Source of the DNA: an uncultured Carboxylicivirga sp.
GTDB lineage: Bacteria > Bacteroidota > Bacteroidia > Bacteroidales > Marinilabiliaceae
DNA: 64,000 bases
Direction: 5' to 3'
NCBI GenBank assembly: GCA_947503525.1
Contig: CANNEA010000001.1
Location: forward strand, 62,001-126,000
The notes under the pieces were generated by a model. That model was not told the DNA's origin. It was given only the letters and a program-made list of their open reading frames with translations, and ran no database searches. The position numbers were made by a program, and so were the translations under genes. This document shows positions 17,342 to 62,958 of the stretch, in pieces (position 1 is the first letter of the stretch; every line of letters begins with the position of its first letter).

Positions 17342-17416
17342 GGGCGATTAGCTCAGTTGGTTTAGAGCACTTGGTTTACACCCAAGGGGTCGGGGGTTCG
17401 ACTCCCTCATCGCCCA
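17342..17416 (+). tRNA. tRNA-Val (anticodon UAC), copy 1
   Basis: A 75-nt cloverleaf: acceptor GGGCGAT pairs with ATCGCCC, discriminator A, no encoded CCA. The anticodon stem CTTGG/CCAAG encloses TTTACAC, giving anticodon TAC (valine) with A at position 37. The T-arm is GGGGGTTCGACTCCC. Confidence 0.96.
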
Positions 17417-17475
17417 CAAAACAATCAAAAGAGATTGTTGAATGCAAAAGGTTGAAATAACCTGATTTTATATCA

Positions 17476-17550
17476 GGGCGATTAGCTCAGTTGGTTTAGA
17501 GCACTTGGTTTACACCCAAGGGGTCGGGGGTTCGACTCCCTCATCGCCCA
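17476..17550 (+). tRNA. tRNA-Val (anticodon UAC), copy 2
   Basis: Identical in sequence to copy 1 and exactly 134 bases downstream. The preceding 59-base spacer is nearly the same as that before copy 3. Confidence 0.96.
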
Positions 17551-17609
17551 CAAAACAATCAAAAGAGATTGTTGAAAACGAAAGGTTGAAATAACCTGAT
17601 TTTATATCA

Positions 17610-17684
17610 GGGCGATTAGCTCAGTTGGTTTAGAGCACTTGGTTTACACCCAAGGGGTCGGGGGTTCGACTCCCTCATCGCCCA
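17610..17684 (+). tRNA. tRNA-Val (anticodon UAC), copy 3
   Basis: Identical to copies 1 and 2, another 134 bases downstream. It is followed within 4 bases by the stem-loop that ends the cluster transcript. Confidence 0.96.
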
Positions 17685-17687
17685 CAG

Positions 17688-40543: not shown

Positions 40544-41587
40544 ATGATTCGATACGATTTTTATAATGATAGTGTTAAAAATTTGGCTGTAATATCCGCT
40601 ATATACTCACTATTCATTAACACGAACAACACTATTGCTCTAATTCATAATTTTATAACTAATTCCGAAATAAATCAGAGCTTATATCAATGGATGCTGG
40701 GAATAAGCATGGTTTTTTTTATATCCTTTGCAACATTAGTTGTTAATTTACATATACTCCCAAGCTTCTCAACACATTCGAAAACCGCTAAATTTTTAAA
40801 AAATTTTATCGTTAACGTCCTACTCTATATTATCTTTGTTTTCACTTTCTATTTCATTGAGAGACAAATCAATATATATGAATCAGATCGAGTAATTCCG
40901 CACCTGTTTGGTTGGACTGTAGTGTATGTTATTAGTTTATTTATTTACAACATGGTAAAGTATCAACGCAATAGAAAGCTTGAGCAAAAAGAAAAAGAAA
41001 TATTAATCACTGAGAAACTTAAAAGTGAATTAAACGAAATTAAGGCGGTGATAAACCCACACTTTTTGTTTAATTCATTGAACACATTAAATGCATTAAT
41101 TAAAATTGACTCAGATAAAGCAAGTATATTTACAACACACCTTTCTAGGCTCTATCGTTATATATTATCTAATAGGAATAAAGATCTTATAACGATTAAA
41201 GAAGAATTGTTCTTCATCAATGACTATGTTGAGCTTTTAAAAATTAGATACAAGAATTGTTTTGATATAAACATTAATATAAAGGATAATCAGCTAAACT
41301 TCCTGATACCGCCATTGTCATTACAACTTCTTATTGAAAATGCAGAAAAACACAATACATTTACGGAAGCATCGCCGTTAATGGTATCAATTTCCATTGA
41401 AAATGAATACTTAATTGTTTCTCATCCTTTAATGGAACGAAAAGCAAAAATTAATAGCATGGGTAATGGTTTATCCTCCCTTACAAAAAGATGTAGAATT
41501 CTCTTTAAGAAAGATTTGTACATCATAAAAAACAAAAATTTCATAGTGAAAGTACCCTTGTTTACAACTGGTGAAAATCATCTTTAG
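40544..41587 (+). CDS. LytS-type sensor histidine kinase
   Basis: A 347-residue kinase of the His_kinase (PF06580) family. Four transmembrane helices precede a short coiled linker. The phospho-acceptor motif INPHFLFNSLNTL has His173, and the ATP-binding part has the PPLSLQLLIENAEKH (N box) and GNGLSSLTKR (G box) segments. It starts 43 bases after the barrel gene and 50 bases before its LytTR regulator, forming one transcription unit convergent with the efflux operon. Confidence 0.92.
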   Translation: MIRYDFYNDSVKNLAVISAIYSLFINTNNTIALIHNFITNSEINQSLYQWMLGISMVFFISFATLVVNLHILPSFSTHSKTAKFLKNFIVNVLLYIIFVFTFYFIERQINIYESDRVIPHLFGWTVVYVISLFIYNMVKYQRNRKLEQKEKEILITEKLKSELNEIKAVINPHFLFNSLNTLNALIKIDSDKASIFTTHLSRLYRYILSNRNKDLITIKEELFFINDYVELLKIRYKNCFDININIKDNQLNFLIPPLSLQLLIENAEKHNTFTEASPLMVSISIENEYLIVSHPLMERKAKINSMGNGLSSLTKRCRILFKKDLYIIKNKNFIVKVPLFTTGENHL

Positions 41588-41637
41588 ATCTATTTAATCA
41601 CACTGATATTATTAAGAAACTTTTAACTATAAACAAT

Positions 41638-42396
41638 ATGAACGTAGTAATAATAGAAGATGAATGGGCCGCTCAAGAACAAATAAAATCGATGCTATCA
41701 GATTTGGATGAAGATATTAGTATAGTACAAGTCATAGACTCTGTTAAACATGCCATTGAATTCTTCCAAAAACAACCTATCATTGATTTGATTTTCATGG
41801 ATATCCATCTTAATGACGGAAACTCACTTGAAATATTTAATCAAGTTGATATTACATCTCCAATTATATTTACAACAGCATATGATCAATATGCTATTCA
41901 GGCATTTAAACACAATAGTATAGATTATCTATTAAAACCAATTGTTCCTGAAGATATTAAACAATCGATAAACAAATACAAATCATTAAACCCCGATTCT
42001 AATCGACCACTTCTTGAATCAATTTACAAGAGTTTATCTGAGTCAAAAGATACCGCATATAAAAATTCATTTTTAATTCAAAAAAAGGATCGATTATATC
42101 CTATTGATAGTGACAATATTGGCGCTTTTTATATCGTGGATAGTTTAGTTAAGTGTCTTACGTTCGACAAAGAGATTCATACTATACCCCATACACTAGA
42201 TGAGCTTGAGAAAATACTTAGGCCATCCCTTTTCTTTCGTGCTAATCGACAATATATACTTAACAGAAAAGCAATAGAACATCTAAGTATTCACTACAAT
42301 GGAAAACTAAAAGTACAGTGCAATATTAATTTAAATTCACCTATTATGGTCAGTAGGCTTAAGAGTAATGATTTAAAAGCTTGGCTTGATATTTAA
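41638..42396 (+). CDS. LytTR-family response regulator
   Basis: A 252-residue regulator: receiver domain (about 1-120) with acidic pocket Glu7-Asp8 and phospho-acceptor Asp55 (LIFMDIHL), and a LytTR DNA-binding domain (about 145-250: FLIQKKDRLYPIDSDNIGAF, LFFRANRQYILNRKAIEHL). It is the partner of the preceding kinase. Its stop lies 9 bases from the stop of the convergent efflux-operon barrel, and its targets may include the neighbouring outer-membrane or efflux genes. Confidence 0.94.
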   Translation: MNVVIIEDEWAAQEQIKSMLSDLDEDISIVQVIDSVKHAIEFFQKQPIIDLIFMDIHLNDGNSLEIFNQVDITSPIIFTTAYDQYAIQAFKHNSIDYLLKPIVPEDIKQSINKYKSLNPDSNRPLLESIYKSLSESKDTAYKNSFLIQKKDRLYPIDSDNIGAFYIVDSLVKCLTFDKEIHTIPHTLDELEKILRPSLFFRANRQYILNRKAIEHLSIHYNGKLKVQCNINLNSPIMVSRLKSNDLKAWLDI

Positions 42397-42405
42397 TAAA
42401 CACTA

Positions 42406-43524
42406 TTAGAAAGCTTCATTTACACCAAAATAGATTCCGCTTTCGCCCTCTCTGTTCACTCCAATATCTAACCTTAAAAGGGTTCGCTTATTTTTATATA
42501 GAAAGAAACGCGGACCTGCTCCGAAACTTGTTTTAAAATCATTGAATAAGCCATGGCCAGATTCATTATGTCCAACATTCCCAGTCAATGCAAATGCGGC
42601 TAATTCCCAACGTCTACTAATTGGTTGGCGATATTCCATTTGCACTACGTAAAGGTGATCATCAATATATCTTCCCTTAAAATATCCGCGTGCAACATCT
42701 GCCCCTCCATAATATGCTTTCGCTTGAAAAGGCGAATCACCAAATGTCAGACGCGAATATACCTGTAAGGCTAATATTTTGTTATTACCTAGATTGAGAT
42801 ACTTACGAGCATCTAAAAAATAGGTATTGAAACTGTGTGTACTTCCTAAAGTTTTACTAGTGAAATTGGTGTTAAATTGATAAAATCCTCCTCGTAATGG
42901 TGAGAATTTATTATCCCTGCTATCTATATTTAAAACAATACCAACTCCTACTAAAGTTGCCCCATTAGAGCCTGCAACTTGATCAGAATCAAGGATTCCT
43001 CCATTCGTTACTTCGGTAACATTGAAGTCTGAAAAATTAAACGCGAAACCAAAATTGACATTACTTGGTAAACTTTTAATAAACTTTGCCTCAAGCGAAA
43101 TTTCAGTCTGATTATAGTTTTCTTCAGCCGTTTTAGGTGTGTTTGGCCCTATACCCCAAAATAAGTTTGGAAAAACTTTATACCTGAATTTTGTATCCAA
43201 AAAATATTTCTCATAATTAAAATATATTTGCGGCTGAACTTCAACTATAAGCTGTTTGTTAAGCGTATATATAGCACTTGCTAATACAGTAGAGTTTAGC
43301 ACCTCCGAATTACTCTTTCCTGTCTTAAAGAACATTTGCATTCCGCCACCGAAAGCAAAGTTTGTTTCAGGACTATAAAAGGCAATGGGAACTAACAGTG
43401 TACTTACATTTCTATAGGCAATTGTATCCGATTGAACAGCTTGCTCTTTGATATCACTATTTTGTCCGGAACAAACAAGTGATAAAAACAGCAATAATAT
43501 TGATATAGTAGAACGCATCATCAT
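42406..43524 (-). CDS. BamA/surface-antigen-family outer-membrane protein
   Basis: A 372-residue exported barrel without POTRA domains. It has a signal peptide (RSTISILLLFLSLVCSG), FAFGGGMQMFF, the ...NFGFAFNFSDFN strands, LNIDSRDNKFSPLRGGFYQFN and a C-terminal strand pair (DIGVNREGESGIYFGVNEAF). These match the C-terminal domain of Omp85 (Bac_surface_Ag). The start is coupled to the upstream barrel gene (TAATG overlap). It is the last gene of the efflux operon; a role in the same envelope process is inferred. Confidence 0.85.
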   Translation of the reverse strand: MMMRSTISILLLFLSLVCSGQNSDIKEQAVQSDTIAYRNVSTLLVPIAFYSPETNFAFGGGMQMFFKTGKSNSEVLNSTVLASAIYTLNKQLIVEVQPQIYFNYEKYFLDTKFRYKVFPNLFWGIGPNTPKTAEENYNQTEISLEAKFIKSLPSNVNFGFAFNFSDFNVTEVTNGGILDSDQVAGSNGATLVGVGIVLNIDSRDNKFSPLRGGFYQFNTNFTSKTLGSTHSFNTYFLDARKYLNLGNNKILALQVYSRLTFGDSPFQAKAYYGGADVARGYFKGRYIDDHLYVVQMEYRQPISRRWELAAFALTGNVGHNESGHGLFNDFKTSFGAGPRFFLYKNKRTLLRLDIGVNREGESGIYFGVNEAF

Positions 43525-44177
43525 TAAAAGAAAAATTGATCTAGATAAATTTGAAAATTAAAATTGAATTGTAATTCAGATACCTTATAAGTTTCTGAAC
43601 TATTGCTATGCAAGACTGTATTATTACGATCAATGTAAAGTTTTGAAGCAGTATAAGCAAGAGACATTCCAAATCCAACATTTTCACTAATAATATACGT
43701 AAAACCGAAACCAGGAATTATTCCATAACCCTTTCCATAAACCTCTTCATTTGAAATTATTGAAGAACCGTCAATTATTTCATTTTGATTATAGATTGCC
43801 GTATAATGTGGTGTTATTTCAGCATAAAGAGCTGCTGCACCCTTCTTAGCAAAATATAAACGACTCCATAAGCCAATGAGAAAGCTTTCAGAATCCAATT
43901 TGATGTTTGCTTTATCAAAATCCGTTTTGGATAAAGCAAAGTTAACCCCAAGCGCCCAATCATCTTTTAGGAATACTCCACTTTTCGTACCAATTCTATA
44001 TCCAGTTGTCTTTATTGATCCTCCAGAGCTGACATCCACATATTGATTTGATATATTACCATACAGATTTGATAATATCCTACCTTTTATAAAAATGGAG
44101 GAATCTTGTGTTTGTGCTTGTATGCTGTTTGCAATTAGAAACAGCAAAAAAGTATATATTGTAACTTTCTTAATCAT
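43524..44177 (-). CDS. outer-membrane beta-barrel protein of the efflux operon
   Basis: A 217-residue exported barrel with a signal peptide (KKVTIYTFLLFLIANSIQAQ) and alternating strands (GYRIGTKSGVFLKDDWALGVNFALSK, GIIPGFGFTYIISENVGFGMSLAYTAS), ending LQFNFNFQIYLDQFFF with terminal Phe. It resembles small porin-like barrels such as PF13568/OmpW types; the exact family is uncertain. It abuts the cyclase stop, and its stop overlaps the following barrel's start. Confidence 0.8.
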   Translation of the reverse strand: MIKKVTIYTFLLFLIANSIQAQTQDSSIFIKGRILSNLYGNISNQYVDVSSGGSIKTTGYRIGTKSGVFLKDDWALGVNFALSKTDFDKANIKLDSESFLIGLWSRLYFAKKGAAALYAEITPHYTAIYNQNEIIDGSSIISNEEVYGKGYGIIPGFGFTYIISENVGFGMSLAYTASKLYIDRNNTVLHSNSSETYKVSELQFNFNFQIYLDQFFF

Positions 44178-45203
44178 CTAATTAATTGTGTAAAGGTTAA
44201 TTGGTTCATTTTTACCCCTGAGCATAAAACTGCCTTTTTTGCTAAATGTATATTCAGAAGTAATAGTTTGCAAATTTTTAAAATCTTCAGACAAAAGCAA
44301 ATGAGATTTTTGTCGATTACACTCTCCTTGAATTCGAGCTGTTGTATTGACGGTATCTCCTAAGTAAGCTATTTCACGTTTGGTTTTACCAATTTCAGTA
44401 ACGGTAACATTTCCTACATGAATACCTGCTTTAAAGGAAGGAATCACATTGTAAGTACTTTTAAAATACTTTGATTTATTCTGCAAAATATTTGTAAATG
44501 CATAAAATGCTTGGAGGCTATTAATTGCTTCTACACTATTATCTGTTGGCCAAGTTATGATGGCTTCATCACCAACATACTTATATATCTGACCTTTATA
44601 TTTGTTGAAAATTGATAGCTCGTAGAAACAATCCTGTATAAGCTTACTGAACCTAAGGTGTCCCAATTTCTCAGCTATTTTAGTTGAATCCCGGAGATCA
44701 ATAAACATAAATATTCGCCTCTCTTTCCGAGGTTCATAATACTTTCCTGTAATGATATACTTCAACATTCCCTGACCCAAAATAAGACTAATACTCATGG
44801 TGATAGAAATAAGAGCATTAACAATTAAAGAATATATAGTGCCAAATACAACTGTTGGTGACGTCATGAATAGCACAAAAGACTTAGGAAATGCCTCGTA
44901 ATTAAAAGATCGAACTACGAAAAAAAGGATGGTAACAATCACTAGGGCAATTATTAATTGAGTTAACAAGGCAACACCCAAAAGTTGGTAAAACTTTACC
45001 CTTTGTGTTAGATAACTAGTAATGAAATAAAAAAGAGTTCCATATAAAAATCCTTGAAACAACCAGGATGTAGTAAAGAAAGCTAAGCGTTCGGTCGATA
45101 TATACTCACCTACCTCAATAGTGGATATACGAATAAGATACCAAACAATGCTGGCAACAAACCACCCTATTAGGTATGTACGTAGTATATATTTATAACC
45201 CAT
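44178..45203 (-). CDS. membrane class III adenylate cyclase
   Basis: A 341-residue integral-membrane cyclase. The N-terminal part (about 1-150) has about five hydrophobic helices. The catalytic domain (about 163-340) shows metal ligands Asp169 (FIDLRDST) and Asp212 (KYVGDEAIITW), with Lys208, plus the substrate/transition-state part AYLGDTVNTTARIQG (Asn286, Arg290). Lys208 with Asp283 favours ATP over GTP. The start at 45203 follows the channel stop; an in-frame ATG at 45254 would overlap it. It probably makes cAMP and is coupled with the potassium channel and efflux genes; the regulatory signal is unknown. Confidence 0.85.
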   Translation of the reverse strand: MGYKYILRTYLIGWFVASIVWYLIRISTIEVGEYISTERLAFFTTSWLFQGFLYGTLFYFITSYLTQRVKFYQLLGVALLTQLIIALVIVTILFFVVRSFNYEAFPKSFVLFMTSPTVVFGTIYSLIVNALISITMSISLILGQGMLKYIITGKYYEPRKERRIFMFIDLRDSTKIAEKLGHLRFSKLIQDCFYELSIFNKYKGQIYKYVGDEAIITWPTDNSVEAINSLQAFYAFTNILQNKSKYFKSTYNVIPSFKAGIHVGNVTVTEIGKTKREIAYLGDTVNTTARIQGECNRQKSHLLLSEDFKNLQTITSEYTFSKKGSFMLRGKNEPINLYTIN

Positions 45204-45210
45204 ACCGCAA

Positions 45211-45894
45211 TTAATTTTCTTTATTAGTAGAGTCGACCTGATTTTGGTTAACAAATTTACCTACAACAATAGCAGTAACTATAACTAAATAAAATTGGCC
45301 GATTAAACCAATTACAATAGTAGCCTTTTGTGCCAAATGCGTAGTTGGTAATATATCTCCATACCCAATGGTCATTAAAGTAATGTAACTATAATACATT
45401 AAGCGTTCTGTTATTGAGTTTTCTGCATCAGCTAATGAATCGATTCCTGAAAATGAATACGGATGAATTAATTCGATACTTATACAAAGGAAGAATCCGA
45501 TTAATCCAAGAGAAATAAACCCACTTATAACGCCAATAATGACATTTTTATTAACGACTTTGGCAAGCCATATCTGCCTTATAATATTATAGCTTACTAC
45601 CAGATGAAATACGAACAACACGGCTATTTTTAAATAGTTAAAAATATTAGTCTCCTCATTCCAACTCGCAAAAGCGAAAACACCTCCAATAATAATTAGA
45701 ACGAAAGCAAATACTTTAATACTACCAGCCTCTTGTTTACCAACAAATTGAGTCCCTGCAACAATATTTAAATAGAACAACACTGGGGAAAGAAAAATAA
45801 ACACATTTGCAGGTATAATTAGTGAGCCAAAAAGAATTGCAATTTGGCTCACTAAAAATATTTCAAATCTATATTTATATAATAAATGCCACAT
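45211..45894 (-). CDS. potassium channel (Ion_trans_2 family)
   Basis: A 227-residue inner-membrane channel with about six hydrophobic helices and a single pore loop bearing the K+ selectivity filter TIGYGD (175-180), followed by the inner helix to about 213. There is no S4-like arginine ladder, no RCK domain and no cyclic-nucleotide-binding domain, so the gating is unclear. It lies 8 bases after the RND permease gene and 7 bases before the cyclase start, an arrangement that suggests the two membrane proteins act together. Confidence 0.9.
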   Translation of the reverse strand: MWHLLYKYRFEIFLVSQIAILFGSLIIPANVFIFLSPVLFYLNIVAGTQFVGKQEAGSIKVFAFVLIIIGGVFAFASWNEETNIFNYLKIAVLFVFHLVVSYNIIRQIWLAKVVNKNVIIGVISGFISLGLIGFFLCISIELIHPYSFSGIDSLADAENSITERLMYYSYITLMTIGYGDILPTTHLAQKATIVIGLIGQFYLVIVTAIVVGKFVNQNQVDSTNKEN

Positions 45895-45902
45895 CTAGTT
45901 AA

Positions 45903-48900
45903 TTACTCTTGATATACGTAACCTTTAAAACTGACTTTGTACAGAACACTATAAAAGGTAGGAATAAATAGTAGCGTAACAATTGTACCAAAAAGTAATC
46001 CAACCATAATTGTGACAGCCATTGGCTCCCAAATGGCACCTCCTCCAAGGTAAAGTGGAACTAATCCGAGCACAGTGGTAAATGTTGCTAATACAATAGG
46101 TCTGAATCGTTGTAAACAGGCTGTTACTATTGCATCTTGACGACTTCTACCAGATTCATTTTCCTCTATTTCAATCCTATCAACCAATACAATGGCATTA
46201 TTTATTACAATACCTGCCAAGGAGATAATACCAAGAAAGGCCATAAACCCAAATGGTACATTAAACACTAATAACCCTAGCACCATGCCTATAACACCCA
46301 TTGGGATGGTAAGCACAATCATTGTCATTTTACGGAATGAGTTAAACTGAATTATAAGCAACATCACAATGATAAATGCTGATAAGGGAAGATAGTTGGC
46401 CACTGCCCCCATATTTTCAGCACTACTTGCAGCATCTCCGCCTAATGTATAGGAGTAGCCTTCTCCCCATGATTCTTTCTGCTCTTCGAGCCAAGGCGTT
46501 AATAAAGTGGTAATTTCATTCGCATTTCCTTCTTCAGTAAGCTCACTTTGTACATTAATCGTCTTGGTTAAATTCAGTCGCTTTATTTTTGAATATTGCC
46601 ACCTAGGTAATATTTTAGCTACTTGAATTAAGGGAACACTTTTACCGGAATTTTGGCCAAATACATTAATGGTCTCCAACGATGCCAAGGATTGCTCATT
46701 ACTACTAGCCCCTAATAAAACGATTGGAATTGATTTGTCATTTTCGCGATACTCTCCAGCATTAAAACCATCTAAAACCGTTTGTAAAGAAGTGGCAATA
46801 TCCTGATTGGTTACTCCTGCTAACTGAGCTTTACGCTGATCTATTTCTATCACAAATTTCTTGCCCTTAGGCCCCCAGTCATCTTTAATATTTTTGGTTC
46901 CTTTAAGAGTGAAAAGTTTTTCTTTTATAGCTGATGATATGCTAGCTAATTTATCAGGATCTTCACCTGAAACTTTAATTTCAACAGGCGTTCCTCCTCC
47001 TCCTGATCCTAATAAGCCCACTTTTATGTCGGCATTAGGGAAAGAATTAAAACAATAACGGTCAAGTTTAGAAACTAAAGTTGTATTAACCAGAAAGTGA
47101 GATGTGTTGACCAAAATATGAGCATAATTCGAATTTGGCTCATCGGCATTGTATCCTAAATCATAGGCAGAAGGACCTTCACCAATATAACTTGACCAGT
47201 CGACAATACCATCTGGTTTGTTTTCATTAACCAATAAGCTATCTTGTATGTACTTTTCGATGGCTAAAACAGTGGTTGTAGTTCTTTCTATTTTAGTGCC
47301 TTGCGGCAAATTAATATCAATGGTTATCATGTTTCTGTCGCTATCCGGAAAGAATAGAACTTTTAGAAAAGTAAATCCAAATAAGGATAGGAAGAATAAA
47401 CCAAGGATGCCAAACAACACCGTTTTTCGCCATGATAAGGACCACAATATTAATTGTCTATACCGATTTTTCATACCATCAATCATACGGTCCAAGAAGC
47501 CTTTCTTCTTATTTGAATTCTTTCCGATTTTAAGAAAAAACACACAAAATAAGGTAATGATGCTAAGTGAAATTATCCAAGAAGATACTAGTGCTATGGT
47601 TATTACAACAAAAATAGGTCCCATGATATCACCCATAACAGATTCTGCCATATAAAAAGCTAGAAAGGCAGCAGATGTTGTTAATGTTGATATGAGAAGA
47701 GGCTTAATTAACTCCGAAGCCGATTCGATGGCAGCTTGTTTCACTTCTATTCCTTCCTCCATTTTAACCATAATAGACTCTGCCACCACTATGGCATTAT
47801 CAACCATCATACCCAATGCCATAATTAGAGCTGCTAGGGTGATTTGATTCAAACCAAGATCCATTAAACCCATAATCATTAAGGTTGTAATGGTTACAAT
47901 TGGTATTAAACTGGCAATAACCATACCTGTTCTAAAGCCAAGAAAGATGAGCATGACAGCTAAAACAATTCCGATGGCCTGAAGAAGGTTATTCATAAAA
48001 TCACCAATCTTCACATCGATGTAAGTATCAATTGAAGCTAGTCTTGAAACAGTTAAACCCACGGGTAGAGATCGTTCATACTTATCTAAAACAACATCAA
48101 TTTCCTCCCCCAGTTTAATAATATTTCTGCCTTCTTTTAACGAAACATGAAGGGATAAACCTTCTCTTCCATTAATGCGAACAATTTGTTCGGGCGGATA
48201 AATGTATCCATGCTCGATTATCGTAATATCTTCTAATGCCACCACAGAACTGCTCTGGCCTATTGGGATAAGCATACCCTTAATATCCGCAATAGAATTA
48301 AAATTACCCGTAGGTTCAAGAATAATACGTTCGTCTTCTATACTAATTTCCCCACCAGAGTTTAAGATATTAGTACTACTTATAATCCCTTGCAGGCTAT
48401 TTGATGTGAGCCCATATTTTTTGAGTTTAGCATTGTCAAATTTAATAAATACACGTTCGTCTTGTGCCCCATTAATCTCTACTTTCGCGGCATCATCAAG
48501 TTTAATTAAGTCATTCCTTAACTTATCTGCTTCCTCTTTTACCTCCTTGTAAGAAAATCCATCACTAGTTATACCTACCGCAATTCCAAATACTTCACCA
48601 ATTCCATCATCACGAAGCTGAGGATACACATTTTTAGGTAGACCTTGGATGGCGTCAATTTTTCGTCGTAAACGATCCCATACTGGCTGGAGCTCTTCAG
48701 GAGCTACTTCCATTTTTAGCTCAACATTAACAACAGAAAGGCCAGTTCTGGATGTGCTCGTGACTTCTTTTAATTCAGGCAATTCCTGAGCAATTTTTTC
48801 AATCTTATCAGTTACCAGTTCTTCAACCCGTTCTGGGCTAGCTCCTGGAAAAGATGAAACAATAGAAGCAACTCTTACTGTATATGGAGGCATGCTATCA

Positions 48901-49001
48901 CGTGATAATGATTGATAAAAAATAATTCCCATCACCATCACAACCATTAATATACTTAGCACTACTCTGTTTCTTTCTATAGAGAATCTAGCAAAATTCA
49001 T
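45903..49001 (-). CDS. RND-family efflux pump permease
   Basis: A 1032-residue AcrB/MexB-like permease, a proton-driven trimeric pump of the inner membrane. It has twelve membrane helices in two halves with large periplasmic loops; TM4 carries Asp within MALGMMVDNAIVVAES and TM10 the matching SLAGIVINNAIVLVDRI. It starts 20 bases after the membrane-fusion protein gene. The TM4 motif VDNA (one Asp, not the DD of AcrB) is common in environmental members. The substrate class (drugs, lipids or metals) cannot be read with confidence. Confidence 0.93.
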   Translation of the reverse strand: MNFARFSIERNRVVLSILMVVMVMGIIFYQSLSRDSMPPYTVRVASIVSSFPGASPERVEELVTDKIEKIAQELPELKEVTSTSRTGLSVVNVELKMEVAPEELQPVWDRLRRKIDAIQGLPKNVYPQLRDDGIGEVFGIAVGITSDGFSYKEVKEEADKLRNDLIKLDDAAKVEINGAQDERVFIKFDNAKLKKYGLTSNSLQGIISSTNILNSGGEISIEDERIILEPTGNFNSIADIKGMLIPIGQSSSVVALEDITIIEHGYIYPPEQIVRINGREGLSLHVSLKEGRNIIKLGEEIDVVLDKYERSLPVGLTVSRLASIDTYIDVKIGDFMNNLLQAIGIVLAVMLIFLGFRTGMVIASLIPIVTITTLMIMGLMDLGLNQITLAALIMALGMMVDNAIVVAESIMVKMEEGIEVKQAAIESASELIKPLLISTLTTSAAFLAFYMAESVMGDIMGPIFVVITIALVSSWIISLSIITLFCVFFLKIGKNSNKKKGFLDRMIDGMKNRYRQLILWSLSWRKTVLFGILGLFFLSLFGFTFLKVLFFPDSDRNMITIDINLPQGTKIERTTTTVLAIEKYIQDSLLVNENKPDGIVDWSSYIGEGPSAYDLGYNADEPNSNYAHILVNTSHFLVNTTLVSKLDRYCFNSFPNADIKVGLLGSGGGGTPVEIKVSGEDPDKLASISSAIKEKLFTLKGTKNIKDDWGPKGKKFVIEIDQRKAQLAGVTNQDIATSLQTVLDGFNAGEYRENDKSIPIVLLGASSNEQSLASLETINVFGQNSGKSVPLIQVAKILPRWQYSKIKRLNLTKTINVQSELTEEGNANEITTLLTPWLEEQKESWGEGYSYTLGGDAASSAENMGAVANYLPLSAFIIVMLLIIQFNSFRKMTMIVLTIPMGVIGMVLGLLVFNVPFGFMAFLGIISLAGIVINNAIVLVDRIEIEENESGRSRQDAIVTACLQRFRPIVLATFTTVLGLVPLYLGGGAIWEPMAVTIMVGLLFGTIVTLLFIPTFYSVLYKVSFKGYVYQE

Positions 49002-49021
49002 AATTTTCTGTTTAATAGAGA

Positions 49022-50113
49022 TTATTGTAATTTTACTTTTTGTTTATCTAACAGTGTTTGTAACCCAGCGGTAGCAATCAGTTGCCCTTCACTTAGCCCA
49101 CTTAAAACAACAAAACCATCATTGGTTAACTCACCTAATACAATGGTTTGTTTTTTTATCACACCAAACTTATTATCTGATGATTCAATAAGCATTACAA
49201 AATTACCACTACCATCTTCTCCTACAGCCTTAACTGGCACAACCAACTGGTTAGAAGAATCTTTAGTGTTTGAACCAAAAGTAAAGATAACATTTGCAAC
49301 CATACCAGGTTTAATAGCTTCGCCTGGACTTGGTATATCAATTTTAACTGGAAAAGTTGATGTGTTGGCATCTACAATTGGAGAAATCTCTATTACGTTA
49401 CCAGCAAATTCCTTACCTTCAATTGAAGATAGATTCACTTTAGTATTCATTCCAATAGACACCTTATTAATTACATTTTCAGGTAATCCTACTAACACAT
49501 TAACATCATCTCCTGCGTTTAAAACAGCAACTACTTGGCCTGAACCCACAGTTTCATTAAGGCTAATATCAACTGATGCTAACACGCCATTTTTTGGAGC
49601 GTAAATGTAACCATAGTTAATCTGTGATTGGTCTATCTCCTTTTTTCGTTTAGCAGATTCATGTTTGTCAAGTGCACTCTGAAATGCATTTTTCGCAGTT
49701 TCGTAATCACTTAACGAATGGCTACCCTTTTCATAAAGAGCTTTACTTCTTTCAAGACTCGATTTGGCAGTATTCATTGCCGATTGTGCACTTTTAAGAG
49801 CAGATACAGATTGTTCATAGGCTAACTGTGCTTGCACATTATCTAAACGCATCAGCAAGTCACCTTTTTTTACTCTTTGTCCTACTTTTGCTTTCAAAAC
49901 CGATATTATCCCACTACTTCTAAAGCTTAATTCTATTTCATTGCTGGCAGAAGCAACTCCGCTATAACTCCTTACTTTTTCAGCATTCAGTTTACTAACA
50001 ACCTCGTAACGTACTGGTTTAATTACTTCTTCTTTTTTCTCTTCTTTACTTTTACAGGCACTTAAAATAGATAGGCTAATTAAAACGGCAAGAGAGTGAT
50101 TTAAATATTTCAT
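49022..50113 (-). CDS. RND efflux membrane-fusion lipoprotein
   Basis: A 363-residue periplasmic adaptor with a lipoprotein signal (LSILSACKSK). It has the first half-lipoyl domain (about 55-95, AKVGQRVKKGDLLMRLDN), an alpha-helical hairpin (about 95-155), the second half-lipoyl part (IYAPKNGVLASVDISLNETVGSG), a beta-barrel and a C-terminal domain ending GLQTLLDKQKVKLQ. It connects the RND pump with the TolC-like protein; both are encoded adjacently. Confidence 0.93.
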   Translation of the reverse strand: MKYLNHSLAVLISLSILSACKSKEEKKEEVIKPVRYEVVSKLNAEKVRSYSGVASASNEIELSFRSSGIISVLKAKVGQRVKKGDLLMRLDNVQAQLAYEQSVSALKSAQSAMNTAKSSLERSKALYEKGSHSLSDYETAKNAFQSALDKHESAKRKKEIDQSQINYGYIYAPKNGVLASVDISLNETVGSGQVVAVLNAGDDVNVLVGLPENVINKVSIGMNTKVNLSSIEGKEFAGNVIEISPIVDANTSTFPVKIDIPSPGEAIKPGMVANVIFTFGSNTKDSSNQLVVPVKAVGEDGSGNFVMLIESSDNKFGVIKKQTIVLGELTNDGFVVLSGLSEGQLIATAGLQTLLDKQKVKLQ

Positions 50114-50125
50114 GTTGAGTTTTTT

Positions 50126-52462
50126 TTAATTGACACTTATTACATATTGCTTTGCACGTAACATAAAATCTTCATTTTCTATGTCAGTATTCATATCAAA
50201 GTAATTGCCTAATAATCGTTGCAACTTCATTAATACGATTCGAAAGTTATACTGGGCTGTTGAGTTGGCCAATTGTGCTTTAAAAAAATTACTTTGTGCA
50301 TCAATCAGCTGTATAACAGGTATTGCTCCATTTTGATATTCATTCTGTGATAATTCAAGGCTCTCCTTTGAAAAATCCAGATCAACCTTTGAAATTTCAA
50401 TGTTGGTTATTTCATTAATTAGATCTAGTACAATGTCATTAATACTTCTCTCAATGCTCAATTCAATATCTTCTCTTTGAAGTTGTAATTGACCTTCTTG
50501 AATTACAGCTGTTTGCCGATTAATGTTTCGTGTGTTTTGCTGAAACACTGGTAGTGAGATATTTAACCCTACATTGTATGAGCCATCAGGCATTACAGGA
50601 TAACCGGTTGGCACATCAGTACCAGCGCCTGACTTGGAAAAAGTATAATTATATTGACCTTGTAATGCTAGGGTAGGGATAAAACGCCCCTTGTCATTTA
50701 AACGATAGCTACGTTTAGCAACATCAATATTATAGCCGATATTTTTAAGCTCTGGGGCATTTCGTTTTGCTTCATCAATAAAAAATTGAGTTAATGCCGT
50801 TTGTTGAATTGGATCATCTAATGCCTCAAGTAAGTATTGATAACTATTTTTGTCCGTTAGTACATTCGTTATAATATTTTCATTTATATCAACATCCTCT
50901 GTTATGGGTAAATTTAACAACTCATTAATCTGATAATAAGCTTGACTAAGTGAGTTTCGCGCCTCAATCAAACTTTGAGTGTTTTGTGCCAATTGGCTTC
51001 TAAAACGTAAAACATCAGACTTACCTGATGCGCCTAATTCTAAATTTTGATTGGCAATATCTAGGTTCTGCTTTGTCATTTGAAGATTCTTGTTTTGAAT
51101 GCTCAAATTTGTTTTAAGAATTAGTGTATTATAGTAGGCAATGGATGCATTTAATAAAGCATCTAATTGAATCGCATTAAAGCTTTCTTTTTGTGAAGCC
51201 AACAAACTTTTTTGAATATCAATGTTCGCTGACGCCTGTTCTGAATAAATTACTTGATTTAGACCTACGTTTCCAGCAGTAGAAAATTCTGGATTTTGAC
51301 CATTTGAGATTTTAGCAACTTCAGGATCAAGATATGCACCATTGGCATTAGCACTAAGATCAGGTAAATATTGGCTTTTGGAACTTTTTACATCTTGTTC
51401 ACTTAGCTTTATATTTTGTCTTTCTACATCAACGCTAAGGTTTCGCTCAACTACACCATTCATTATATCCAACATTGAATAGCTATTTGCTAATTCCGAT
51501 GATCCACTTCCCTCAATGAGATTAACTTTGGCCAACATACTGTTTTTGACTGTAAAGTCTATATCATCGGCAGTACTCATATTAATAGATAATTGTTTTT
51601 TGTAGTTGATGTGTAAAGGAAGCTCTGACGCATTTGTTCCACTGTTTATTGCCTCAACATTAAGGGCAACTCGTCGAAATATTTGGTCAAAATTGATTCC
51701 AGGTTGATTACTTGCCAACACTCCTCTTTCAACGTCCTTAATACCATACCCAGATAAGGATGGTATTTTCTTATCATTAACCCCCTCAATTAACAATTCC
51801 ACGGACTTAGAAGACAAACTATTATAAGATGCTAGATAGATGGCATCAATATCATTTGTAAGAGTATTAATATTACTTTGCGCATTGATGGCTATTAGTT
51901 TATATTCTTGGTTTCTACCTTCAAAATATTGATCAAATAAATCTTTAATGGGTAACAGTTTAAGCAGGTATTCGTCTATCAAAACCCCAATTCTTTCATA
52001 ATTTGTTATTGAAAGAAAAGCATCCATATCATCCTTATAAGAAAAAGGTGTTATGAGATATGTTAAGTTGTTAATATTTGATTTAACCTGATCCTTAGGA
52101 ACATCAACAAAATCATTATTTATGGCACCTACAACAATAGTCGGTTTAGGGTAATCTTTTCTCTTGTGTAGCATTAAGGTGTTAACAACTCCAAATGAAA
52201 TAACAATATCTGTTTCGCTCGCAAGAAGTTTATTGTAATTAGATTCCGCAACAGAAAGATCTTGATTATTGTATAAAACCTTCTTAAAATCAATTCTTGT
52301 TTCATTGCCAACCAAAGCGGTAATATTACTTTTTAGTTGTTGCAGATACAATTCTGAATCAGAATTCTGATGTTCGTCGAGAATTCCAATCGATAGTGTT
52401 TTTTGAGCGTAACTAGTAAAAACTAATCCTGCCAATAAAACCAGTAAAAAGAATTTCTTCAT
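50126..52462 (-). CDS. chimeric TolC-like outer-membrane protein with N-terminal ABC-type substrate-binding domain
   Basis: A 778-residue fusion with a signal peptide (KKFFLLVLLAGLVFTSYAQ). Residues about 20-320 read like an ABC_sub_bind-type periplasmic binding protein: SIGILDEHQNSDSE at the N-terminus, DIVISFGVVNTLML, KPTIVVGAI, YERIGVLIDEYLLKLL, IDAIYLASYNSL. Residues about 335-770 are two TolC/OEP repeats (ERQNIKLSEQDVKSSKSQYLPDLSANANG; then the FIDEAKRNAPELKNIGYN repeat). Ordinary TolC proteins are about 430-500 residues, so the roughly 300 extra residues are a real domain. The periplasmic domain could sense or gate substrates. It is coupled with the regulator upstream (3-base gap). Confidence 0.85.
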   Translation of the reverse strand: MKKFFLLVLLAGLVFTSYAQKTLSIGILDEHQNSDSELYLQQLKSNITALVGNETRIDFKKVLYNNQDLSVAESNYNKLLASETDIVISFGVVNTLMLHKRKDYPKPTIVVGAINNDFVDVPKDQVKSNINNLTYLITPFSYKDDMDAFLSITNYERIGVLIDEYLLKLLPIKDLFDQYFEGRNQEYKLIAINAQSNINTLTNDIDAIYLASYNSLSSKSVELLIEGVNDKKIPSLSGYGIKDVERGVLASNQPGINFDQIFRRVALNVEAINSGTNASELPLHINYKKQLSINMSTADDIDFTVKNSMLAKVNLIEGSGSSELANSYSMLDIMNGVVERNLSVDVERQNIKLSEQDVKSSKSQYLPDLSANANGAYLDPEVAKISNGQNPEFSTAGNVGLNQVIYSEQASANIDIQKSLLASQKESFNAIQLDALLNASIAYYNTLILKTNLSIQNKNLQMTKQNLDIANQNLELGASGKSDVLRFRSQLAQNTQSLIEARNSLSQAYYQINELLNLPITEDVDINENIITNVLTDKNSYQYLLEALDDPIQQTALTQFFIDEAKRNAPELKNIGYNIDVAKRSYRLNDKGRFIPTLALQGQYNYTFSKSGAGTDVPTGYPVMPDGSYNVGLNISLPVFQQNTRNINRQTAVIQEGQLQLQREDIELSIERSINDIVLDLINEITNIEISKVDLDFSKESLELSQNEYQNGAIPVIQLIDAQSNFFKAQLANSTAQYNFRIVLMKLQRLLGNYFDMNTDIENEDFMLRAKQYVISVN

Positions 52463-52465
52463 AGT

Positions 52466-52933
52466 TTAATTATTAAAATATTTTTCCATTTTTTCATCTA
52501 CCACAGCCAAGACATCAGCATTAAATGCAATAGAGTTTTCAATAAATTTATTCAGTTCCAAATTTTCATTTGATCTCATATCCAAACAAGTTTTCAATAA
52601 TAAATCTTGCTCTCTATAATTAGAAATGACCATTCTAATAAAATGCTTTATTCCATTTGTATCTAGATAGAACAATCGCTTCCGGCTATGTTCCTTAGAA
52701 ACAACAAACGAAATTCGCTTTAAATTTTGCAAGAGCTTCAATGTCTTACTAACGGCACCTTTACTTGCACCAACTTGTTCCATTATTTCTTCAAAACTGA
52801 AATATTTTTGATCTGAAACATAAAATAAACCCATAATTTTACCAGTCAGCGGAGGTAAACCATCAAGTTCATATGCTTTTGCAAAGTTGATTAACAATTC
52901 ATGTTTTTCCTTCATACATTCCCGAATTACCAT
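52466..52933 (-). CDS. GbsR/MarR-family transcriptional regulator
   Basis: A 155-residue winged-helix regulator (MKEKHELLINFAKAYELDGLPPLTGK, then FEEIMEQVGASKGAVSKTLKLL as the recognition helix-turn-helix, and SKEHSRKRLFYL as wing). It matches GbsR-type MarR members that control efflux pumps in Bacteroidota. It heads the operon, and a palindrome overlapping its -7 box suggests autoregulation. An alternative start at 52915 (MKEKHELL) aligns slightly better with the family. Confidence 0.88.
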   Translation of the reverse strand: MVIRECMKEKHELLINFAKAYELDGLPPLTGKIMGLFYVSDQKYFSFEEIMEQVGASKGAVSKTLKLLQNLKRISFVVSKEHSRKRLFYLDTNGIKHFIRMVISNYREQDLLLKTCLDMRSNENLELNKFIENSIAFNADVLAVVDEKMEKYFNN

Positions 52934-52941
52934 TAGAAAAT

Positions 52942-52967
52942 CTTTGTTTCCCTAATTGGAAACAAAG
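52942..52967. promoter_or_regulatory. palindromic operator of the efflux operon
   Basis: A perfect inverted repeat, CTTTGTTTCC (52942-52951), 6-base spacer CTAATT, GGAAACAAAG (52958-52967). It lies 9 bases before the regulator's longest start and overlaps the -7 box, as expected for a MarR/GbsR dimer that represses its own operon. The binding protein is inferred. Confidence 0.7.
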
Positions 52968-52970
52968 GTA
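52963..52970 (-). promoter_or_regulatory. -7 box of the efflux operon
   Basis: TACCTTTG on the minus strand, matching TAnnTTTG. The box shares 5 bases with the right arm of the palindrome, so a bound repressor would block it. No clear -33 element. Confidence 0.5.
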
Positions 52971-53438
52971 AGTCAAAATTTGTTTTGTACTAATGAAATT
53001 ATTGGAAAGCTATAATTCTTGCCAGATTTGTTATTGTTTTAATCTGCGATTCTTGAATGTTCATATTTTTTTAAAGAAAACCTCCATTGCTTGCTATTCA
53101 CTATACTACTTTTAAAATTCAAGTGTTTTAATTAAAGGTTAATCCCAGAATGATATTTCCGTGGCGTTAATGTTCATTTCACTTTATACTTCTGCCATTT
53201 CGCGTACCGATTTTTTAACTTGACCTATTTTTAATATTGAGTTGTTACATCTTGGCTTATTTTTGTCCCAAATAGTTCATTTGTGCTGAAAGTGTATTTA
53301 TAAAGATTAAATGAAATATTAAGAAATTGTTATTTTGCAAAAATGACTAATAGTATTCAATTGCATTAAGCTTTTGGATTGTTTGAATAATATTTATCAC
53401 TAATTAATAATTGAGACTAATATTTAAAATATTAAATT
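52971..53438. other. intergenic region upstream of the 7TM-AraC gene
   Basis: About 470 AT-rich bases with no coding or RNA signal that I can support. The leftward efflux operon and the rightward AraC gene diverge from here. Confidence 0.4.
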
Positions 53439-54548
53439 GTGGAAATTCAAAGTTACGTTGATGTATTGTTGTTAACCGGTTCTGTCTTAGCAGTATTAAT
53501 GACATTTTTTTTATGGACTAATCCATTAAAATTACAATCTAATATAGTTTTAGGATGCATTACTTTTAGTTGGGGGTTCACAGTATTTATTTTTGTAGTA
53601 CAATCAAAGGAATTTTATATTAGTTATCCTCATCTTTTTGGGATTTCAAGTGTACTATGCATCCTCTTTTTTCCGTTCCTTTACATATATGTGAAATCCT
53701 ATATGTATGGTTCTGTAAGCAAGAAGGAGATCGTATTACATATGCTGCCTGTAATTATTTTTTGTCTATTAATAGCTCCTTTTTATCTACAAAAATCGGA
53801 TACAAAAATCGAGCACTTTCAAAATGGATTACCATATTTTGCAAGTATTGTATTAAAAATAAATGTTATAATTATAATTGTTCAAGGGATTCTTTATTCA
53901 AGCTTATCGATTCGCTTGCTCCATCAGTTTCAATTTGAAAGAAAGTTGAATGATTCTCAAAATGCTGTTGTACTACGAATTAAGCAGTTTGTGATAGTGA
54001 ATATTTTGCTTTGGGCGATAGGAGCTTCGGGAGTTTTGTTGGAGGAGATTGGTTTGGAGACGAAGTATTTAGATTTCTTCTATATATATTATTTTGGTCT
54101 TACTTTACTAATTCTTAGTCTTGGGTATTTTGCATTAAAGAAGCCATCTTTATTGCGAGGTATGGAGTTTTTTAATAGTCAAAGCGTAATGAATAAGGTT
54201 GTGACGGTGGCTAGTGATAAAGAAACTGTTGTTAATTACCTTGAAAGCGAGAAGCCCTATTTAAAACGCGATCTAACACTACAAGACTTGTCAAATGGCT
54301 GTGGTATACCTAAGTATAGAGTGTCGGAAGTGTTTAATTCCATCTTAGGGAAAAGTTTTTCTGAGGTAATTAATGAGTATCGTGTTAATGAGGCAATTCT
54401 AATGATTCAAGATAGTAAACATCAAAGGTATACACTGACCCATATTGCTGAAAAGGCCGGGTTTAATTCACGAGCTTCATTTTATAGGATTTTCAAGAAT
54501 ATAACGGATAAGACGCCTTCAGAATATGAGCAAATAGCCCCATCATAA
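53439..54548 (+). CDS. membrane-bound AraC-family regulator (7TM + HTH)
   Basis: A 369-residue regulator with about seven N-terminal membrane helices (to about residue 230) and a C-terminal AraC helix-turn-helix (about 260-365: LTLQDLSNGCGIPKYRVSEVFNSILGKSF, YTLTHIAEKAGFNSRASFYRIFKNITDKTPSEY). This class is widespread in Bacteroidota and couples membrane signals to DNA binding. It uses a GTG start at 53439; no in-frame ATG precedes it, and the next ATG would cut the first helix. It faces the efflux operon and is followed by a glycan/peptide uptake region; its target is unclear. Confidence 0.88.
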   Translation: MEIQSYVDVLLLTGSVLAVLMTFFLWTNPLKLQSNIVLGCITFSWGFTVFIFVVQSKEFYISYPHLFGISSVLCILFFPFLYIYVKSYMYGSVSKKEIVLHMLPVIIFCLLIAPFYLQKSDTKIEHFQNGLPYFASIVLKINVIIIIVQGILYSSLSIRLLHQFQFERKLNDSQNAVVLRIKQFVIVNILLWAIGASGVLLEEIGLETKYLDFFYIYYFGLTLLILSLGYFALKKPSLLRGMEFFNSQSVMNKVVTVASDKETVVNYLESEKPYLKRDLTLQDLSNGCGIPKYRVSEVFNSILGKSFSEVINEYRVNEAILMIQDSKHQRYTLTHIAEKAGFNSRASFYRIFKNITDKTPSEYEQIAPS

Positions 54549-61521: not shown

Positions 61522-62958
61522 ATGATTAAGTTAATTCTAAAAGTATTTTTTATTTCAACCTTTTTATGCTGTTTAATAATCGGGTGTAATAAAAGTAGTT
61601 ACGATATAGAAATTCATCCAGAAGCCGGTAAGAGTTTTTTGAATATTGAAAACGAAGGTTTTAAAGTTAGTTTGGAAGCTATTGAGCCACCTCAAAGTCA
61701 GATTGGCGTTTGGAGAGTCTACAGTGGAGAACATGGGCGTTTTGAGGATGAAAACGACCCTAAATCAGTATTTTATGGTGAGCCAGGAGAGATCTATTTA
61801 TTGGGTTGGGAAGTAAGTCATGGGGGAGACTATAAGGTGTCTGAGATTAATGTATCCTTTAAGCCATTAAGCCCTGTGGTTTATAGTAATATTGGAGATA
61901 CTATTCACAATAACATCTCAATGTACCTTGAGGCCAAAGCTCCTCAATTTGGTGCAACTGGGAAATGGGAAATAATTGATGGCGGCCTAGGGTCTATTAA
62001 TTATGCTGATAGTTCTGATGCTCAATTTATTGGTGTTGAAGATGAGCGCTATACACTAAGGTGGTCTTTGTCATATGGTTCAAAAAAAGAATATCAAGAA
62101 TTTTCTTTTCGAACAGATACTTTGCGAGCACAGGCCGGCGACGATAGGTTAGATGTGGTCACATCGTCGGATGAGAAGAAATTTTGCAATATGGAAGGTT
62201 ATTTGCCTGCAGGTGCAACAGGGAGGTGGCGAATTATTAAAGGTAGCGATGGTATTATCCATTCGGCCAATCATGGGAGTTCAATTTTTGAAGCAGTAGC
62301 CGACACAACGTATGCTTTAGAATGGGCGGTGCAATTGGGCGAAATTGAAGTACTTGATACTGTGCAAATTCGATTTCGTGGTAAATGGGGTATGTGGACT
62401 GATCAAAGAGATGGACAATCATATCGCTACACCGAGGTAGATGGTAAACAATGGATGGCAGATAACTTCAATTATGCTTATAAATCAGGGGCCGGATCAT
62501 GGTATTATGGCCATGCCGAACGGTCAGTTATTAAAGCAGGCCATGCCCTGGAGTCTGAGCAAGAAAGAAAGTTGCACGGCCGACTATATACATGGCAAGA
62601 GGCTTATGAAGCGACACCTGAAGGATGGCGATTACCAACCAATCAAGATATTACCGATTTATTAAACTATTATGGCGGCGCTTTTTTTGCCGGAGAAGCC
62701 TTACTGGAAGGAGGAAAGGCAGGTACTGAATTTATTTATTCTGGATTTCTAGATCTACAAAGTTCTGGTGATGTTGCATTACGTAATGTATTTGACCATC
62801 AAGATATATTAGGTATTTATTGGACAGGCACCTATGATTCAGTTACCGGATTATCAACGGTTTATTCTTTTGATGTTGATGCTAAGCAACCAGGTGGTGG
62901 GTATTACCCTCCTGGATACACAGCTTGTTCAGTACGTTACATACGTGATATTAAATAG
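61522..62958 (+). CDS. FISUMP-domain lipoprotein with three Ig-like repeats
   Basis: A 478-residue lipoprotein (lipobox LIIGC, Cys22). Residues about 35-285 contain three similar units of about 90 residues, each with a G-x-W-R/E-x-I/V core and an L-x-W-E/S end (IGVWRVYSG ... LLGWEVSHG; TGKWEIIDGG ... LRWSLSYG; TGRWRIIKGS ... LEWAVQLG). Residues about 290-478 are a FISUMP domain (DGQSYRYTEVDGKQWMADNFNY, YTWQEAYEATPEGWRLPTNQDI, SVRYIRD). It is encoded between SusD and a subtilase and is probably a surface binding or scaffold component; the function is not known. Confidence 0.82.
   Translation: MIKLILKVFFISTFLCCLIIGCNKSSYDIEIHPEAGKSFLNIENEGFKVSLEAIEPPQSQIGVWRVYSGEHGRFEDENDPKSVFYGEPGEIYLLGWEVSHGGDYKVSEINVSFKPLSPVVYSNIGDTIHNNISMYLEAKAPQFGATGKWEIIDGGLGSINYADSSDAQFIGVEDERYTLRWSLSYGSKKEYQEFSFRTDTLRAQAGDDRLDVVTSSDEKKFCNMEGYLPAGATGRWRIIKGSDGIIHSANHGSSIFEAVADTTYALEWAVQLGEIEVLDTVQIRFRGKWGMWTDQRDGQSYRYTEVDGKQWMADNFNYAYKSGAGSWYYGHAERSVIKAGHALESEQERKLHGRLYTWQEAYEATPEGWRLPTNQDITDLLNYYGGAFFAGEALLEGGKAGTEFIYSGFLDLQSSGDVALRNVFDHQDILGIYWTGTYDSVTGLSTVYSFDVDAKQPGGGYYPPGYTACSVRYIRDIK

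Follow-up and report, generated by a model that had tools for sequence, protein, structure and literature searches.

Why should an efflux pump be encoded together with a potassium channel and an adenylate cyclase? The question is raised by a 64,000-nucleotide window of DNA (the whole stretch analysed here, positions 62,001 to 126,000 of contig CANNEA010000001.1) from an uncultured Carboxylicivirga sp. of the Bacteroidota, in which eight minus-strand open reading frames (ORFs) tile the whole of positions 42406-52933 in the order marR-tolC-mfp-rnd-kch-cyc-ompB-omp85 (Table 1). ORF tiling and Pfam and NCBIfam matches confirmed the preliminary description of eight close-packed leftward genes for a regulator, the three parts of a resistance-nodulation-division (RND) pump, a K+ channel, a cyclase and two outer-membrane barrels. 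The gaps, in gene order, are 3, 12, 20, 8, 7, 0 and -1 bases with the cyclase start taken at 45203; the limit of 20 bases given earlier thus holds, but among the several overlaps then reported, that of kch with cyc is removed by this start. Scanning positions 41500-54500 revealed no terminator-like site at the operon junctions, and the sole such site just outside the operon, at 52942-52967, is the operator palindrome described below. A cyclase query of 99 other relatives returned orthologues more than 60% identical in 2, Labilibacter marinus and Saccharicrinis aurantiacus, while no other match exceeded 43% identity; each of the two belongs to another genus of the family and carries all eight genes in unchanged order. 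Since the whole order is found again in two other genomes, the arrangement, as far as gene order can tell, is not due to chance.

Across wider samples, comparison of gene neighbourhoods indicates that the chimeric TolC, the adaptor, the RND permease and the K+ channel form a conserved quartet, to which the cyclase, the Omp85/OmpB barrels and a LytS/LytTR or MarR-like regulator are optional additions. A channel-alignment scan of species genomes yielded 67 named loci; these were retrieved with a pair of short peptide patterns and are biased towards Aquimarina and other Flavobacteriaceae. An RND gene lies upstream of the channel on the same strand in 57 of the 67, with no ORF of at least 80 aa between them in 38, and a TolC of more than 700 aa is present in 53. 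The RND-linked loci, a term that takes in those with other ORFs between rnd and the channel, span the Marinilabiliaceae, Flavobacteriaceae, Fulvivirgaceae and Flammeovirgaceae. These partner counts are lower bounds, since genes more than 10 kb away, or past the end of a contig, escape the scan. The association also emerged from a different seed: a profile of the TolC N-terminal domain matched 8 of 395 class genomes, 6 of which carry the channel in the operon, the remaining two being G277 (no channel at TolC, a convergent cyclase nearby) and G566 (neither). The same six genomes appeared when the channel was the seed in the class sample, which gave 17 places in 15 of 395 genomes at E ≤ 1e-15, with 6 places directly after TolC/adaptor/RND (G000, G233 with the cyclase between, G769, G752, one of two in G770, and G673). 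The neighbourhood search that the preliminary description had proposed therefore bears out the channel, kept beside RND genes in other genera and families, and our finding is stronger than that description for the channel and weaker for the cyclase.

Channel and RND distances are correlated over 47 dereplicated loci (r 0.82, matched by none of 1,000 permutations, the species tree not being controlled). Dereplication at 90% RND identity gave 36 RND-linked loci of 64 (named and unnamed), in which the families most often found after the quartet were lytT (13), hisK (11), a lipoprotein (10), a 138-aa secreted protein (9), ompB (8), a trypsin-like (HtrA-like) protease (8), omp85 (7), marR (6) and cyc (6); the families of all eight window genes and of the two-component neighbours fall within the 13 most recurrent. 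In the 67-locus set, an Omp85 homologue occurs in 21 loci and an adjoining ompB-omp85 pair in 20, a LytTR homologue (at least 140 bits) in 24, all of them RND-linked, and a LytS homologue in 23 (22 at 140 bits or more). This company suggests another explanation, namely an envelope-stress island in which pump, channel, barrels, two-component pair and, elsewhere, protease are co-regulated against membrane damage and the channel resets potential or turgor independently of the pump. The recurrent protease, Omp85/OmpB, lipoprotein and LytS/LytTR neighbours are what such an island would contain, and several of them shift place between loci while the quartet stays mostly intact. That no ORF of at least 80 aa separates rnd from the channel in 38 of the 67 loci, however, is a tighter bond than shared regulation requires, and the other partners come and go. 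We regard the stress island as possible, if doubtful.

Some loci carry further genes. Several Aquimarina loci encode a protein with a Tle1-like phospholipase domain between rnd and the channel, beside a small lipoprotein-like gene (L113:8774-9994, the one copy identified with Pfam; ORFs of 399-409 aa occupy the same place in L114, L115, L117, L125, L132 and L151). In two distinct genera, what we name from sequence a periplasmic nitrate-reductase-like cluster follows the channel (L120:12810-19202 and L123:10834-18596).

Hydropathy and alignment give the channel six hydrophobic helices and a filter of the form TIGYGD/E; the T-x-G-Y-G filter, kept in 73 of 76 aligned rows (two genomes counted twice), and the pore domain identify it as a K+ channel. 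Ion_trans_2 is its sole Pfam match, with no cytosolic ligand domain or cyclic-nucleotide-binding domain (CNBD), and the chain ends about 15 residues past the last hydrophobic segment. No regular basic array of the S4 arginine type that would mark a voltage-gated channel was seen over 64 aligned rows. The AlphaFold2 model is of moderate confidence (pLDDT 72.7) and found no Foldseek match at E ≤ 0.001; SthK is among the weak sequence and fold matches, the latter at E 0.02 or worse. Locus L172 has a second, divergent channel homologue (165 bits) just upstream of tolC, beside a complete quartet. A plasmid search returned 184 records, 170 of them Escherichia, with channel relatives below 60% identity (29-30% in the ten rows listed); the single plasmid region examined (L281, CP055714.1) has no RND or efflux gene near the relative.

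A full-length permease, an adaptor and an outer-membrane factor stand together in one predicted operon, as in tripartite RND systems. The best solved relatives of the permease are MexK (548 bits) and 6vej, and the adaptor also matches HlyD_D23 in Pfam. The outer-membrane factor is the chimera that the preliminary description had recognised: its TolC/OEP part follows an extra N-terminal domain of approximately residues 20-315, which comes close to ABC_sub_bind (PF04392) in Pfam at 22.9 bits against a cut-off of 25.9. Its AlphaFold2 model (pLDDT 87) is matched in Foldseek by 3lft, 6hni and 3lkv (TMq 0.62-0.70), the same three entries that its profile retrieves, and the domain is predicted to adopt a periplasmic-binding-protein fold like that of aromatic-amino-acid-binding proteins. 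In L132, where the rest of the quartet is present, the chimera is split into ORFs of 317 and 445 aa.

The cyclase calls for more caution. The listed ORF begins at TTG 45254, and since two close orthologues begin at the residue matching Met18, the start is probably ATG 45203, 7 bases after the channel gene. Residues D186, D229, K275, D300, N303 and R307 (numbered from 45254) are invariant in 16 of 16 rows, which count two genomes twice and include the loosely placed row of G277. We take these to be the two metal-binding Asp, the substrate Lys/Asp and the transition-state Asn/Arg, respectively; a Lys/Asp substrate pair favours ATP, and the active site as aligned is that of a class III adenylate cyclase. 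A cyclase is found in 11 of the 67 loci, in the order rnd-kch-cyc (L109, L110), rnd-cyc-kch (L134, L136, L157, as in G233) or rnd-cyc-orf-kch (L120), or in a cluster of its own, some 8 kb past the channel, that also holds LytTR and, where the stretch extends to it, LytS (L129, L130, L135, L139, L140); a fragment at the end of the L142 stretch (76.6 bits) was left out of the count. Of the two genomes available twice (L040/L109 and L041/L110), only L109 and L110 belong to the 67-locus set. In a 59-row tree, the 14 linked cyclases, G277 being counted as linked, require 2 label changes where shuffling gives 12.7 on average (0 of 500 shuffles as low), and they form two clades with support of 100, one of the type of the window, L109, L110 and L129 and the other of the type of L120, L134 and G233. 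Around unlinked cyclases of the same family, 21 control stretches, which represent 20 of the 45 tree rows classed as unlinked (the others were checked over about 1.5 kb or not at all), contain no channel, TolC or adaptor and one unrelated RND gene (70 bits); the ORF pass recovered the cyclase itself in 20 and missed it in L221. The linkage of the cyclase put forward earlier is therefore upheld for the 11 loci and the two clades but does not extend to the family at large. From these neighbourhoods, the cyclase is an optional partner of the pump-channel unit.

We conclude that the locus encodes a genuine RND efflux system equipped with a channel, in which pump and channel very probably constitute a functional unit; our explanation as a whole, that of a tripartite system specialised by a potassium channel of its own and working as set out below, we consider an even call. 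In the scheme we propose, the MarR-like repressor would leave its operator once substrate or stress appears, and the RND pump would export a compound through TolC, whose periplasmic domain may bind a small, perhaps aromatic, ligand and thereby gate or load the duct. The channel would open alongside the pump, so that K+ flow offsets the charge moved by an ion-driven pump and holds the membrane potential during pumping; that it balances charge in this way is plausible, although we stop just short of an even call. Where present, the membrane-bound cyclase would convert the state of the membrane or pump into cyclic AMP (cAMP) for receptors of the Crp/Fnr type, for which the 15 cNMP_binding matches in the genome are candidates; such a reporting role for cAMP is put forward more tentatively, as is the coupling of substrate recognition or membrane potential to cAMP suggested in the preliminary description. 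In a bolder version, which we hold to be improbable, channel and cyclase would be a bacterial two-gene counterpart of the K+ channel-adenylyl cyclases of protists, the cyclase reading a shift in conductance or potential and cAMP reporting efflux load. If that version were true, the efflux pump would come with an electrical read-out, triggered by pump activity or by a ligand on the binding domain of TolC.

Several observations weigh against a pump with a dedicated channel and cAMP read-out. A TolC seed matched 18 of 395 phylum genomes at E ≤ 1e-30, the window's own genome included; of these, 14 lack a channel match beside TolC, 3 have one, and in 1 the contig stops short. The pump can thus do without a channel, with absence being judged by phmmer with the channel of the window, which very distant channels can escape. 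The gene order is tolC-mfp-rnd-cyc-kch in G233, from another family, and tolC-mfp-rnd-kch in G318, where the channel is weak (44 bits), and in G353 the contig ends just past rnd. A channel-profile search of the same sample matched 13 of 395 genomes, among them G000, G233, G318 and G239, the last with channel and TolC on different contigs. Conversely, in 9 of the 67 channel loci the upstream side holds no RND gene on the strand of the channel (one further locus, L149, is truncated there by its contig end), and 10 of the 17 places found with the channel seed do not follow TolC/adaptor/RND, while one more, in G810, is contig-cut. Linked and unlinked rows mix on the channel tree, which needs 11 label changes where shuffling gives 17.2 on average (0 of 500 as low), and since many of its forks are weak and its branches long, we refrain from stating that the linkage arose just once. 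With regard to signalling, the cyclase is a minority partner at 11 of 67 loci and its wider family is common elsewhere (30 of 295 class genomes at E ≤ 1e-20). Moreover, without a CNBD in the channel, cAMP cannot gate it in the usual way, and we rejected direct gating through such a domain.

The permease adds a difficulty of its own. In the AcrB-type proton relay, which we take to be Asp407, Asp408 and Lys940, the first Asp is kept here, the second is Asn and the Lys is Asn. Membership of the RND superfamily stands by sequence, canonical energisation is unproven, and the non-canonical relay makes the coupling ion uncertain. One might accordingly suppose that the pump uses a different coupling ion and that the channel maintains the cation gradient it needs. 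The Asp-Asn pair of transmembrane helix 4 (TM4) and the Asn of TM10 would allow this, both being present in each of the 66 RND rows linked to a channel (two genomes entered twice). Yet channel-free relatives share Asp-Asn in 14 of 14 rows and Asn in 11 of 14, and the aligned MexK likewise lacks the Lys; the relay does not track the channel and so does not explain it. The rows do not support it as the reason for the channel, and we find this proposal quite unlikely. The non-canonical relay spans this RND family, with TM4 Asp-Asn in 80 of 80 aligned rows and TM10 Asn in 77 of 80.

A Pycsar- or CBASS-like defence pair, in which the channel would act at the membrane as effector of the cyclase, might be read from the patchy distribution of the cyclase orthologue and from PADLOC PycC models that match its catalytic domain. 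We reject it as scarcely credible, since the PycC matches are weak (best 41.4 bits) and confined to the catalytic domain, the channel has neither a CNBD nor a PADLOC match, and 56 of the 67 channel loci have no cyclase above 90 bits, their constant partner being the RND pump and not a defence gene. Chance neighbours under one promoter, to which the patchy cyclase orthologue (2 of 99 other relatives) and the low G+C of a perhaps transferred block might point, are hardly tenable, as associations in 57 of 67 and 6 of 8 cases from two different seeds, with the order of optional partners reshuffled between families, already refute this explanation for channel and pump and leave it open for OmpB.

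The genomic setting suggests that the operon belongs to a transferable block. The G+C content is 0.28-0.38 over 38-57 kb of the window, compared with 0.35-0.41 just outside; the cyclase orthologue, which is the only component searched in all of them, was not found in 13 same-genus genomes; and an ORF named integrase-like from its sequence lies beside the operon in L041. A sister genome (G007) shows no clear-cut empty site: it keeps the AraC and sulfatase genes of the left flank (89% and 91%, respectively), and the next genes are a different block. Elsewhere in the window, three tandem tRNA-Val(tac) genes lie at 17342-17685.

Table 1. Features of the operon and its immediate surroundings (positions in the window)
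Feature	Description	Positions	Strand	Support
operator-like palindrome	GTTTCC-N6-GGAAAC, upstream of marR	52946..52963	.	exact match
marR	MarR/GbsR-like winged-helix regulator, 155 aa	52466..52933	-	HTH_34, MarR_2 sub-threshold
tolC	chimeric outer-membrane factor, 778 aa	50126..52462	-	OEP 166 bits
mfp	RND periplasmic adaptor lipoprotein, 363 aa	49022..50113	-	RND_mfp 210.7 bits, cut-off 94.9
rnd	RND permease, MexK-like	45903..49001	-	ACR_tran 514 bits
kch	six-transmembrane potassium channel, TIGYGD filter, 227 aa	45211..45894	-	Ion_trans_2 37 bits, above cut-off
cyc	membrane-anchored class III adenylate cyclase	44178..45203	-	Guanylate_cyc 43 bits
ompB	small outer-membrane beta-barrel, 217 aa	43524..44177	-	OMP_b-brl 22.5 bits, sub-threshold
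omp85	Omp85-superfamily barrel, 372 aa	42406..43524	-	Omp85 41 bits
LytTR regulator	response regulator, convergent neighbour	41638..42396	+	Response_reg and LytTR Pfam matches
LytS kinase	LytS-type histidine kinase, His_kinase PF06580	40544..41587	+	Pfam 80 bits
small barrel	outer-membrane beta-barrel, 178 aa	39964..40500	+	OMP_b-brl 28.2 bits, just under cut-off

The winged-helix likeness of the regulator stands, but the GbsR/MarR label given earlier comes from weak sub-cut-off matches, to which NCBIfam adds MsvR (29.6 bits) and CudC (28.9 bits), both far under their cut-offs. MarR homologues precede tolC in L109, L110, L150, L154, L159 and L164, and in all six, as in the window, marR is preceded at a distance of 30-77 bases by the pattern GTTTCC-N6-GGAAAC with no more than one mismatch (twice in L159). 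This makes 7 of 7 independent loci with a MarR homologue above 60 bits. Over 1.68 Mb of fetched loci there are 17 sites, compared with a shuffled mean of 2.7. Of these, 9 stand ahead of marR (two genomes being represented twice), 7 fall within other ORFs and the last precedes a 65-aa ORF. At one mismatch or fewer, there is no genome-wide enrichment (15 sites, against 32 for the reversed control), and at two mismatches, the count in the window is within chance (5 sites, shuffled mean 2.06), so that the case for an operator rests on its position before marR. The 6.56-Mb genome has a second exact copy, which we took as chance since it lies within a coding ORF.

The LytTR regulator is likely associated with the operon. 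The LytS gene also adjoins the operon in L041, and the 178-aa barrel stands beside it in L041/L110 (a 183-bit match in L110). In Saccharicrinis, LytS, LytTR and this barrel flank the operon too, but on the opposite side, the same set in an altered layout. At L129:15220-17058, a CitMHS/SLC13-type transporter with a TrkA_C domain is encoded near the Omp85/OmpB pair.

How does this arrangement compare with known systems? RND pumps are regarded as machines of three parts that run on the proton gradient. Pumps of the MexJK type, and 6vej, which we take to be TriC of TriABC, likewise combine an RND permease, an adaptor and a TolC-like factor, with MexK as the best solved relative of our permease; what sets the present operon apart is the binding-protein domain on its outer-membrane factor, together with the added K+ channel, cyclase and two barrels. 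That domain shares its fold with aromatic amino-acid-binding proteins such as 3lft, solved with L-Trp, and CD0873 (6hni), presumably a Tyr-binding protein, and differs from them in being fused to an outer-membrane factor and in scoring below the Pfam cut-off. SthK, a cyclic-nucleotide-gated bacterial K+ channel, has six transmembrane helices like ours, which lacks the CNBD. Among the matches listed in our literature search, to whose scope subscription journals were mostly external, no title or abstract opening describes an RND operon with a K+ channel. In the same phylum, BT_2792-BT_2795 of Bacteroides thetaiotaomicron form a four-gene tripartite bile-salt efflux operon, with no channel mentioned in the portions of the articles at hand (PMC10994844, PMC12596196). 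The available portion of version 2 of PMC10197588 contains none of the words "RND", "channel", "potassium" and "TolC"; version 1, which has "RND", "ion channel", BT2792 and BT2795, lies outside that scope.

The nearest precedent for joining efflux to K+ flux, according to the available part of its description, is RosAB, an efflux pump/potassium antiporter system that pairs an exporter with a K+ pathway, as here (PMC9629497); RosAB consists of an MFS pump and an antiporter, whereas our operon has an RND pump and a channel and is not of the RosAB type. Because its core is an RND pump and an efflux/K+ precedent exists, we do not regard the system as categorically new. For the channel-cyclase pair, the nearest precedents in the passages available are the protist fusions of Paramecium and Plasmodium, in which a cyclase and a K+ pore act as a pair and of which the Paramecium adenylyl cyclase/K+ channel responds to hyperpolarisation (PMC3283738, PMC12414865); a 2025 review, in the part accessible, states that dual-function channel-cyclases appear to be restricted to protozoa (PMC12414865). 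Our pair consists instead of two separate bacterial genes, with a canonical six-transmembrane channel and a standard filter, and we liken it to the fusions by function, claiming no sequence relationship. The optional cyclase may nevertheless offer a bacterial setting for the joint action of a channel and an adenylyl cyclase, and the binding-protein/TolC fusion a handle on ligand-gated outer-membrane ducts. That several families of Bacteroidota have kept a K+ channel alongside a single RND family suggests that pumps may in some cases handle charge or membrane potential with equipment of their own.

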